IMG/VR virus record: IMGVR_UViG_3300017708_002093
Location: 1 to 58,251 of that record
Reading direction: 5' to 3' (one strand)
Source: a virus
DNA length: 58,251 bases
Made by a program: the position numbers and the translations under genes. Positions 48,628-53,477 of this stretch are shown piece after piece; the stretch's first letter is position 1, and the number at the start of each line of letters is the position of its first letter. Under the pieces are notes generated by a model. It was given only the letters and a program-made list of their open reading frames with translations, did not search any database and was not told where the DNA came from.

Positions 48628-48793
48628 GAATTAACTCCAATTCAATTTTATCTGGATTATATGCACCAGTATCATAATACTCTGATGCTAGTTCGTCAAG
48701 TGCTTCTGTAACCTCTTCATACGTTAACTCAGAACGTATGACATCACCCTCATAAAGTATGTTGAATAAATTAGATGACTCTTGTTTTTTCAT
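48614..48793 (-). CDS. Small acidic hypothetical protein
   Basis: A 59-residue protein starting MKKQESSNLFNILYEGDVIR at 48793; a longer frame from 48847 would lie well inside the glycosyltransferase gene, so the inner ATG is preferred. It has the regular feature ELTYEEVTEALDELASEYYDTG, likely a helix plus a Tyr-rich turn, then ELELIHGKN. It overlaps the genes on both sides (23 nt and 14 nt). Function unknown. Confidence 0.75.
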   Translation of the reverse strand: MKKQESSNLFNILYEGDVIRSELTYEEVTEALDELASEYYDTGAYNPDKIELELIHGKN

Positions 48794-49565
48794 GCCCAAC
48801 ACGAATTCTTGGATCACACCAAATCTTAAACCCTGCCTCAATTGCATCTAAACAGAATGAGACATCCTCTCCACACATGTCTTGTACTGCACCAGATTCA
48901 AAAACTTGCATCTTTGGTGCAAACCATGGATACTTCATCTCTTCATTCTCAAAGACTCCTTTCTCAATCATCACCCACCCAAATCCAGTGTAGTCAACTG
49001 TAAATGGCTTACGACGCTTTGAGATTGTCTCACCAGTTTCATGATTCATGACTCCACCATTGTTTCGGAAGTCATCCTCATCTAACCAATGTGCAACTGA
49101 TGTAGTACGACCATCTTCTGTCATGTACCATCCAGCAGCAATAGATCTTTTCTTTGTCTCATCCTCTACTGCTTCTGCAGGAAATGCAAGATCACATAAT
49201 TGCCAGAACTTCTCACTACTAAACACAATGTCACTATCAATCCATAATTGATAATCATAATTTAACTTACCGCCCCATGGTATCTGATCAGGTCCTCTCA
49301 GTACATTCGCACCTAAACACTTACATCTTGCAAAGTTTACCATTGATGAGTAATCTTGACTAATCTGAATACTCATTCCATTCTGTACAAGATCAAAGCA
49401 TAGTTGTACAAAGTTTTTCAAATACGTATAAGAAACTCCTCTACCAGGTAGGCAAAATACAATTGCCTTTCCTTTCATTCTTTCCTTAATTGCATCATAG
49501 TCCCATTCAGACTCTGTTGATGCTTTCTCAGGCGCTTTTGCCTTTACTGTAAATCCTTTTGCCAT
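48771..49565 (-). CDS. Glycosyltransferase-like protein (GT-A fold)
   Basis: A 264-residue protein. After a short linker come CLPGRGVSYTYLKNFVQL, QISQDYSSMVNFARCKCLG, the DxD motif WIDSDIVF (D110, D112), TVDYTGFGWVMIEKGVFE and GEDVSFCLDAIEAGFKIWCDPRIRVGHEK (232-260). The DxD, the FGWVMI acceptor loop and the GEDVxF helix fit family-2-like transferases of the GT-A fold. A role in modifying virion sugar or host envelope is inferred only from family type. It has its own late promoter 36 nt upstream. Confidence 0.85.
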   Translation of the reverse strand: MAKGFTVKAKAPEKASTESEWDYDAIKERMKGKAIVFCLPGRGVSYTYLKNFVQLCFDLVQNGMSIQISQDYSSMVNFARCKCLGANVLRGPDQIPWGGKLNYDYQLWIDSDIVFSSEKFWQLCDLAFPAEAVEDETKKRSIAAGWYMTEDGRTTSVAHWLDEDDFRNNGGVMNHETGETISKRRKPFTVDYTGFGWVMIEKGVFENEEMKYPWFAPKMQVFESGAVQDMCGEDVSFCLDAIEAGFKIWCDPRIRVGHEKTRVI

Positions 49566-49981: not shown

Positions 49982-50297
49982 CAGAGGGGTTTCAGAGGGT
50001 TTATAAATTTGGGAAATTTTTTTATGAGCGTGATACTTATGTCGCAAAAGACATACAGTGTAGGTTAGGGTAGTGGGGGGTTTTATATACGCACGGCCCG
50101 TTAATAAGAATTAACAATTAATCGTAATACCTGTCTATTACTAATAACGAACAATCGTTATTCGTGCTTATTACTAATAACGAACAATTACTGTTTATTA
50201 TTAATAATTAACGATTACTATTTGTTACTTAGTAATCACTGTTTATTAGTAATAAGAACTGGTTGTCTATTACTAATAACGAAGAACTGTTTATTAG

Positions 50298-50332
50298 TAA
50301 TAAGAACTGTTTCGATCATTGTATATCGAACT
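50298..50332. repeat. 35-nt perfect direct repeat, copy A
   Basis: Identical to 50346-50380, 48 nt apart (two 24-nt periods). It starts TAATAAGAACTG and includes the TTCGAT...ATCGAA palindrome. Confidence 0.9.
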
Positions 50333-50345
50333 AGTTGTCTGTTAC

Positions 50346-50380
50346 TAATAAGAACTGTTTCGATCATTGTATATCGAACT
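50346..50380. repeat. 35-nt perfect direct repeat, copy B
   Basis: Second copy of the repeat at 50298-50332; it abuts the terminator-like hairpin at 50381. Confidence 0.9.
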
Positions 50381-51623: not shown

Positions 51624-51715
51624 ATAAGACCCTTAGGATACACTGAGACCTGAGATGAGTTTCTGTTGTTCTCAGAGGCATGTAGAGGGGTCTCAGTGTA
51701 TCCTAAGGGTCTTAT
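51624..51715. repeat. 27-bp perfect inverted repeat
   Basis: Arms 51624-51650 and 51689-51715, perfect over 27 bp, loop 38 nt. A nested 6-bp pair CTGAGA/TCTCAG (51650-51655, 51670-51675) lies at the loop edge. No T run follows on either side. It lies between the gene ending at 51742 and element copy 2. Confidence 0.9.
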
Positions 51716-51927: not shown

Positions 51928-51955
51928 GAGATTAATGCGAATTGATGACCTTGTT

Positions 51956-51984
51956 ATTATAGTATCTTATGGGGAAGATGTCAA
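51956..51984 (-). promoter_or_regulatory. Consensus sigma-70 promoter
   Basis: On the minus strand TTGACA (51984-51979), 17 nt, TATAAT (51961-51956): both hexamers and the spacing are ideal. It lies 29 nt before the ATG at 51927. An AATAAATA (52003-51996) just upstream is probably chance. Confidence 0.85.
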
Positions 51985-52114
51985 CGAAGTCTTTGTATTT
52001 ATTCGGAGACCTTATGAGAATTTTATGAATGTCCTGGGATGCTTATTATTGGGGCGCTTGACTTATGGGGGCGTTGATGATAGAATTCCATCTAAGATCA
52101 CAAGGTCTCAGCAC

Positions 52115-52260
52115 ATTTCCACAAGGATTAGTGGTCTTAAGAGTACATTAATCATAAGGTTTTCCACACATAACCAATACTTTTCCACAGGTTTTCCACA
52201 CACAACAAAACACACAACATGATTAAAAATAACATTTAATTATCTTTTTAATGTATTTTA
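52115..52260. other. Candidate replication origin: DnaA-box cluster plus AT-rich DNA
   Basis: Within the gene-free stretch 51928-52322 the plus strand has three TTTTCCACA (52160-52168, 52181-52189, 52192-52200) and one ATTTCCACA (52115-52123). TTTTCCACA is the cyanobacterial form of the DnaA box. Starts are 21 and 11 nt apart, close to whole helical turns. A very AT-rich segment (52215-52260) follows, as in DNA-unwinding elements. The origin role is inference. Confidence 0.5.
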
Positions 52261-52285
52261 ACCCCTATTTTACCTCATAGGCATT

Positions 52286-52307
52286 AAAAAAGGGGCATAA
52301 GTGCCCC
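52286..52307 (-). terminator. Terminator after the charged coiled-coil gene
   Basis: 6-bp GC stem GGGGCA/TGCCCC with a 4-nt loop, then six T on the minus strand. Confidence 0.88.
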
Positions 52308-52322
52308 CCTAACATAAAAGAA

Positions 52323-52520: not shown

Positions 52521-52579
52521 CTATCTCTGTATGATTGTTTCCACTATTTAATAAAAACTGTTTTTCTTGCATTGGGATT

Positions 52580-52884: not shown

Positions 52885-53136
52885 CACTGGATCTAATCCT
52901 AATCGATATCTTGCTGCATCAATTGCATCCTTTCTCTTATTGAATAGTGCTGGTTCTTGTTCATACCTTAGTTGAGTGTAACGATACTTTTTAACATAAT
53001 GTCCTAGTTGTTCATCTTTGTCCATGACTGTTTTACTATAAAAGTAAATTGCAAAATTACCTTTTGGATTTCTTTTACTCTCCTTATTAATAAGATAAGG
53101 AGAAGGAGTTGTTGTTGATGGAAGTAGTTTAATCAT
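52879..53136 (-). CDS. Small basic hypothetical protein
   Basis: An 85-residue protein: MIKLLPSTTTPSPYLINKES, FAIYFYSKTVMDKDEQLGHY, KKYRYTQLRYEQEPALF and an Arg-rich end (AIDAARYRLGLDPVS). The start overlaps the stop of the next gene upstream (53133-53136), so the two are coupled. No family or motif is recognised. Confidence 0.75.
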   Translation of the reverse strand: MIKLLPSTTTPSPYLINKESKRNPKGNFAIYFYSKTVMDKDEQLGHYVKKYRYTQLRYEQEPALFNKRKDAIDAARYRLGLDPVS

Positions 53137-53477
53137 GAGAAGATGTAACCGTTAGTGAAATCATAGACGTTGTAGACTTTACTTTGTCCTGCCATTCCTA
53201 CAAACTTTCTTACAAACCACTTATAATTCTTTTGGAATACACCTTCACCAGCAATACAAAACTCATCACAGAGTGCATTAAGTCTGGATTTTGTTGTATT
53301 TGATTGATAACCACCATCAAAGATAGTCATGCTATCATCATCAATCTCCGCAATTTTATTACCGTGAAGATATACTTCTGACACATTATTTGCATCAGTG
53401 ATAACACTTGTGTTTGCAGATTGCCAGTTCTGATTGTTATGAACTGCTGCACACATTTGGGTTTCGATCTTTCTCAT
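53133..53477 (-). CDS. Conserved hypothetical protein, 114 residues
   Basis: MRKIETQMCAAVHNNQNWQS, NTSVITDANNVSEVYLHGNK, IFDGGYQSNTTKSRLNAL, and GEGVFQKNYKWFVRKF. The pattern (MRKIExQM..A, VYLHGNKIAE, DGGYQSNTTKSRLN, GVFQK) is one I recall from several cyanophage genomes with no assigned role. It may be a small alpha/beta regulator. It is coupled to the 85-residue gene after it. Confidence 0.85.
   Translation of the reverse strand: MRKIETQMCAAVHNNQNWQSANTSVITDANNVSEVYLHGNKIAEIDDDSMTIFDGGYQSNTTKSRLNALCDEFCIAGEGVFQKNYKWFVRKFVGMAGQSKVYNVYDFTNGYIFS

Follow-up and report, generated by a model that had tools for sequence, protein, structure and literature searches.

The R-loop origins of bacteriophage T4, such as oriF(uvsY), use MotA-dependent middle promoters, and to our knowledge no T4 replication origin makes use of DnaA. 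Other phages have DnaA-assisted origins, including P1 oriR and the lambda origin with its promoter pR, and these operate with initiators of their own, RepA and O, that have their own iterons. Among the cyanomyoviruses, a theta-origin prediction for Syn9 is reportedly due to Weigele et al. 2007. A passage of PMC2984593 cites a single predicted theta origin for Syn9, and its place, its mechanism and any link to DnaA boxes are absent from that passage. For cyanobacteria themselves, a passage of PMC4674748 names TTTTCCACA as the species-specific DnaA box. Here we describe an array of this word in a cyanomyovirus, as part of a module for which no description was found in the open-access literature searched.

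The stretch of DNA analyzed (the window, 58,251 bases) covers part of the genome of a T4-like cyanomyovirus whose major capsid protein shares 81% identity with its counterpart in Synechococcus phage S-SCSM1. Three exact copies of TTTTCCACA occupy 41 nt of the plus strand (52160-52200), at 52160..52168, 52181..52189 and 52192..52200, and a weak DnaA-like box, ATTTCCACA, lies at 52115..52123 on the same strand. This arrangement had been reported in a sequence-only reading of the window, and a word count confirmed it. The same reading placed the boxes near whole helical turns; of the successive steps of 45, 21 and 11 nt, the latter two do approximate whole turns and recur in relatives, but the 45-nt step from ATTTCCACA, at about 4.3 turns, does not fit. 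The boxes sit in a 395-nt gap (51928-52322) flanked on both sides by minus-strand ORFs. We tentatively interpret this intergenic region as a host-DnaA-binding control region and, most likely, the site of the first round of phage replication, a putative assignment to which we give slightly less than an even chance.

Counting both strands, TTTTCCACA occurs three times in total in the 58,251-base record, a figure that describes this fragment rather than the complete genome of the source virus, and the reversed word has no copies in the record. The count alone is unremarkable, since at least three copies appeared in 6 of 100 shuffles of the record. Two copies no more than 60 nt apart arose in 3 of 2000 order-2 Markov simulations, and three copies within 60 nt in none of the 2000. 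The array signal is the clustering of TTTTCCACA, not its copy number.

To relate the word to host DnaA, we turned to host-family genomes reached via a genome titled Cyanobium, which was found with phage PsbA; we take this family to be the Cyanobiaceae. Loci were obtained from 30 of 121 host-family genomes, and 29 of the 32 loci were used for the dnaN count, three shorter ones being left out. Twelve exact copies of TTTTCCACA, distributed over 10 of these 29 loci, fall within 450 bp upstream of dnaN, and the other 107 kb of the same loci contain none. A tight TTTTCCACA pair is present in 22 of the 121 genomes. By coordinates, the pair adjoins dnaN in five (G006, G061, G075, G085 and G105), and some dnaN-side arrays share the 12- and 21-22-nt steps seen in the phages; in others, tight pairs adjoin unrelated genes. 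With tight pairs in only 22/121 genomes and upstream copies in only 10/29 dnaN loci, host oriC frequently carries fewer boxes than the phage does, a point against the origin reading. The word fits host DnaA, yet it is scarce at the dnaN of many hosts. Isolated pairs off dnaN were observed in host-family loci L411, L413, L416, L417, L430-L432 and L436, and some recur in similar sequence contexts across several genomes; such pairs possibly mark DnaA-regulated host genes. On the phage side, a search of 10 cyanomyovirus genomes found no phage-encoded DnaA, and host DnaA would therefore be the reader of the boxes.

Conservation of the array was assessed relative to two landmark genes, both on the minus strand of the window: the Kyano_Gp96 gene at 53133..53477 (PF23790; T4-GC 637, a label from S-SM2 and S-PM2), which serves as the positional landmark of the conserved locus, and the gene of the 264-aa family phrog_1574 (here GC102) at 48771..49565. 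Twenty-eight complete cyanomyovirus genomes, nearly all from different genera, were chosen from search matches and by accession to span genera, and Gp96 is present in 24 of them. Together they hold 108 exact boxes in 5.5 Mb, and 45 of these are no more than 2 kb from Gp96, against an expectation of about 2; the loci and genomes are mutually related, so probabilities derived from such counts are optimistic. Defining a tight cluster as two or more exact boxes no further than 60 nt apart, we found 15 clusters in 14 genomes, and all 15 are located 35-1762 nt from Gp96. S-SCSM1 and S-SSM4 have one exact box plus near-variants, as does S-SKS1 at a distance of 4.5 kb. The remaining 11 of the 28 genomes have no such cluster in the stretches examined, near-variants having been sought in part of those stretches, and two of them, RN05-S and Bellamy, have no exact box anywhere. 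The four genomes without Gp96, also among these 11, are likewise without any tight exact pair, and neither T4 nor the Pelagibacter myophage HTVC008M has a tight pair of TTWTNCACA.

Viral contigs provided a second view of the locus. In 80 contigs retrieved with Gp96 as the protein query, box density reaches 4.3 and 5.5 per 10 kb in the first kb on either side of the gene, against 0 to 0.37 per 10 kb in bins beyond 2 kb, and 200 letter-permuted words gave 0.11-0.23 per 10 kb in the same contigs. When 9-mers near Gp96 were ranked across 99 loci, TTTTCCACA scored highest, with 115 occurrences near the gene (291 kb) and 11 far from it (654 kb); several of the next-ranked 9-mers appear to stem from the Gp96 gene itself. 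Mild variants follow at lower counts, with 16 near versus 5 far for TATTCCACA and 7 versus 4 (a ratio of 3.7) for ATTTCCACA, the weak box of the window. The clearly enriched variants alter the first or second position, and most changes to CCACA bring no enrichment. An IMG/VR scan for three boxes in about 90 nt returned at least 120 stretches, and in 74 of the 120 listed at least one encoded protein has a relative in the cyanomyovirus set (blastp 1e-10). Among the listed stretches that have a landmark gene, 49 of 57 carry the phrog_1574 family gene; the cluster lies on the 5′ side of this gene in 49 of 49, at 1.0-3.4 kb in 37 of them by hand count. Conservation in close relatives, on which the sequence-only reading had staked its proposal, was thus found, though in about half of the loci: an exact box lies within 2 kb of Gp96 in 16 of 33 loci with both flanks complete. 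That reading had also called the boxes cyanobacterial in type, a description borne out by the published word, by its marking of the regions upstream of host-family dnaN and by the conservation of the clusters by position in many genera.

These data bear on whether the array is read by a protein other than DnaA, of phage or host origin, with a motif that merely equals the DnaA box. Such a binder would be compatible with two loci, L186 and L190, that have no boxes and carry a different repeated word, TGTCCCACAT, at the same place. We nonetheless regard it as improbable, because the 9-mer is the exact cyanobacterial DnaA box named in the passage of PMC4674748, because all 12 exact copies in the host-family loci fall upstream of dnaN and because the clearly enriched variants are confined to changes at the first or second position.

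The layout of the arrays is also constrained. Tandem boxes in relatives favor steps of 11-12, 20-22 and 42-44 nt, and inverted boxes are mostly 23 nt apart. The window pattern, box-21-box-11-box (with 20-22 and 9-12 nt allowed), occurs in 29 distinct arrays, one of them that of the window itself; hand-sorting of the other 28 assigned 21 to cyanomyovirus stretches or S-WAM1 and 7 to neither. In the inverted pair, the exact boxes and the 14-nt gap are kept in most relatives, and the gap shifts from GATAATGCGGAAAT to unrelated sequences. A chance cluster, or a by-product of coding or composition, is an exceedingly improbable account of these arrays. The inverted pair does overlap the end of a small annotated ORF in some relatives, as a coding by-product could, but the pair and its gap length persist where the gap sequence and reading frame change, and coding constraint was rejected as the cause. 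Chance and composition were likewise rejected on the basis of the permuted words, the Markov simulations (0/2000) and the clustering at Gp96 in the 28 genomes.

The 395-nt gap holds further features of a control region. A promoter-like sequence on the plus strand at 52058..52086 (P2, TTGACT-N17-TAGAAT with TG before the -10, 10/12) is directed into the boxes, and a second on the minus strand at 51956..51984 (P1, TTGACA-N17-TATAAT, 12/12) is directed away from them into an array of small minus-strand genes. The sigma-70-like promoter that had been noted beside the boxes is present and is probably P2; P1 is the better match and the sole perfect TTGACA-N17-TATAAT in the window. The first ORF past P1 (51742..51927, minus strand) encodes 61 aa and belongs to phrog_12516, of unknown function. 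On the CACA-3′ side of the boxes, an AT-rich and easily melted stretch at 52201..52292 is a candidate unwinding element, and the AT-rich DNA previously described as adjoining the boxes amounts to 74% AT in the 100 nt after them. A terminator-like hairpin with a T run at 52289..52310 (minus strand, from its fold), where the upstream minus-strand gene ends, bounds the intergenic region; its fold z-score is only -1.1, and a separate scan did not report it.

Several repeats were observed elsewhere in this part of the window. A 26-nt repeat, CTTACACCTAAGGGTCAATCTCAAAG, is present with up to 2 mismatches in seven copies (51191, 51553, 53726, 54249, 55618, 56152 and 56924 in plus-strand coordinates), all in a single orientation and each just upstream of a minus-strand ORF, and resembles a leader or promoter element common to these ORFs. 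A perfect inverted repeat of 27 nt, enclosing a 38-nt loop, lies between two minus-strand ORFs at 51624-51715 and folds far better than shuffles. Rfam returned only microRNA matches, far below gathering scores and all at this unrelated hairpin. At 50109-50380 there is a degenerate AT-rich array of direct repeats of the TATTACTAATAA type.

Promoters accompany the box clusters throughout the group. In the window and 16 complete genomes, the density of sites scoring 11/12 or better is 1.08 per kb up to 600 nt from the clusters and 0.10 per kb elsewhere, and 14 of 17 clusters (one per genome, including the window) have such a site nearby. Promoters were also counted at 82 distinct clusters. Identical clusters had been removed beforehand, as had clusters closer than 400/700 nt to the end of a locus and loci matching neither Gp96 nor GC102. 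Because some of the loci had been retrieved with the box pattern, the set is a test of promoters, not of boxes. A P1-like site lies 1-350 nt off, on the same side and pointing away in gene orientation, at 52 of the 82 clusters, where about 2 are expected and a scrambled-hexamer control gave 0-2. P2-like sites (10/12 with TG) were found at 24 of the 82, versus 2-3 in equal far stretches, and in an alignment of 24 P2-like sites many are followed by a AAGATCAC-like block and then by the boxes. The P2 RNA of the window has a fold only slightly more stable than those of its shuffles (z -2.2). Conservation of such a fold among P2 RNAs was rejected, as RNAalifold yielded no structure from 24 P2 sequences. 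As a separate observation, iteron-like AT-rich repeats of the GGCATTTAATAAG type occupy the P2-to-box interval in three loci (L014 near 6544, L025 near 1316 and L118 near 1076, in gene orientation).

The same promoters are found at loci that have no boxes. P1-like sites are present in 15 of 17 box-less loci and in 15 of 16 loci with boxes, and P2-like sites in 14 of 17 and 9 of 16, respectively. No near-variant boxes were found upstream of P1 in the box-less loci. In L186 and L190 (about 8.3-9.6 kb), several copies of TGTCCCACAT or its inverse lie upstream of the P1-like promoter and may perhaps form an alternative binding array in this position. The persistence of promoters in box-less loci indicates that they form the wider conserved core, with boxes as an extra in about half of the lineages, and it speaks against an essential origin. 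By the same token, the lack of exact boxes in 17 of 33 complete-flank loci means that boxes are not essential to every cyanomyovirus.

An optional regulator would show this pattern. Bound host DnaA could repress or activate P1 and P2, tying early transcription to the replication state of the host with no origin involved, and the tight co-occurrence of array and promoters agrees with such a switch, as do the isolated TTTTCCACA pairs beside other genes off dnaN in host-family genomes. However, P1 lies anywhere from 4 to 339 nt from the boxes (median 155), which is loose for an operator, and the first ORFs past P1 are spread over 12 families (17, 13 and 11 members in the three largest), leaving no single conserved target gene. 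Loose spacing and changing downstream genes together argue against a simple operator, and we consider a DnaA-responsive switch unlikely, while still giving it appreciable weight.

An origin would also be expected to melt. Near 17 clusters, the minimum of duplex stability falls at a median of the 0.9th percentile, compared with the 6.5th for random stretches (p 0.0005); in the window, the lowest 80-bp duplex stability starts at 52213 and ranks, more moderately, at the 3.7th percentile of the window. According to a passage of PMC8287927, a DnaA-trio run is expected 0-16 nt past a box. The window has a trio-like run of seven NAN triplets from 52215, a run that shuffles equal in 195 of 5000 cases and A-matched stretches in 42 of 945, which puts it only weakly above chance. 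No GC-skew inflection was seen at the boxes of four complete genomes (Syn9, S-PM2, S-RIM44 and S-WAM1), which counts against an origin; a phage with a recombination phase and a one-sided gene order presumably need not show a GC-skew switch.

The melted stretch and the promoters also help to evaluate a decoy function, in which the array would sequester host DnaA as the phage genome multiplies and thereby halt host re-initiation. The E. coli locus datA is a similar DnaA-titrating site. High-quality boxes in a compact array, in phages of which 10 genomes yielded no DnaA of their own, would suit such a sink. Arrays mostly hold only two to four boxes, however, and the fixed position, promoters and melted stretch are all conserved yet needless for a decoy, which makes this explanation improbable.

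Returning to an origin, we find that the locus combines elements of the described systems. With cyanobacterial oriC beside dnaN it shares the box word and, as in G006, G061 and G105, arrays with 12- and 21-22-nt steps; it differs in its divergent near-perfect sigma-70 promoters, in the lack of a GC-skew switch and in the lack of a phage DnaA in the 10 genomes. Like the R-loop origins of T4, of which oriF(uvsY) is an example, it has a host-type promoter reading into an easily melted stretch of a T4-like genome, although the T4 genome itself is without a tight pair of TTWTNCACA. The presence of host DnaA boxes in the control region of a phage recalls P1 oriR and the lambda origin, the latter also with transcription near the origin. 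In contrast to those phages, which encode an initiator with iterons, the present one is a T4-like myovirus, and the initiator searched for was DnaA. Syn9, for which a theta origin was predicted, is a cyanomyovirus that carries a box pair at 52565/52589. At the level of sequence, a DnaA origin is represented by a host-consensus box cluster, helical spacing (the 45-nt step excepted) and an adjacent unwinding stretch, and the layout of an R-loop origin by P2, which runs through the boxes into the AT-rich 52201-52292.

Overall, of the three functions suggested in the sequence-only reading (origin, decoy and regulator), conservation, divergent promoters and an easily melted stretch favor an origin without proving one. 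In the mechanism we envisage, host DnaA would bind the box array, and bound DnaA together with transcription from P2 would open the AT-rich stretch. Either the RNA made from P2 or the bubble itself could then let a T4-type replisome load, and later rounds would shift to recombination-dependent replication in the manner of T4. For replisome loading, Syn9 and P-SSM4 encode the helicase loader gp59. More broadly, many T4-like cyanophages may have an oriC-like, host-DnaA-dependent and transcription-assisted origin in a conserved position beside Gp96, with sister lineages that keep the promoters and have lost or replaced the boxes; we put forward this generalization as a plausible but doubtful one.

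Cyanomyoviruses are abundant viruses of the main photosynthetic bacteria of the ocean, and how their replication starts is not established in the literature searched. With exact coordinates for the module in Syn9, S-PM2, S-RIM44 and S-WAM1, the question is directly testable, and because the use of DnaA boxes varies by lineage, sister phages can be compared in this respect. If the proposed origin is real, the replication of a lytic phage would be linked to host DnaA, unlike that of T4, and its first round would hang on the replication license of the host, possibly on its light or clock state.
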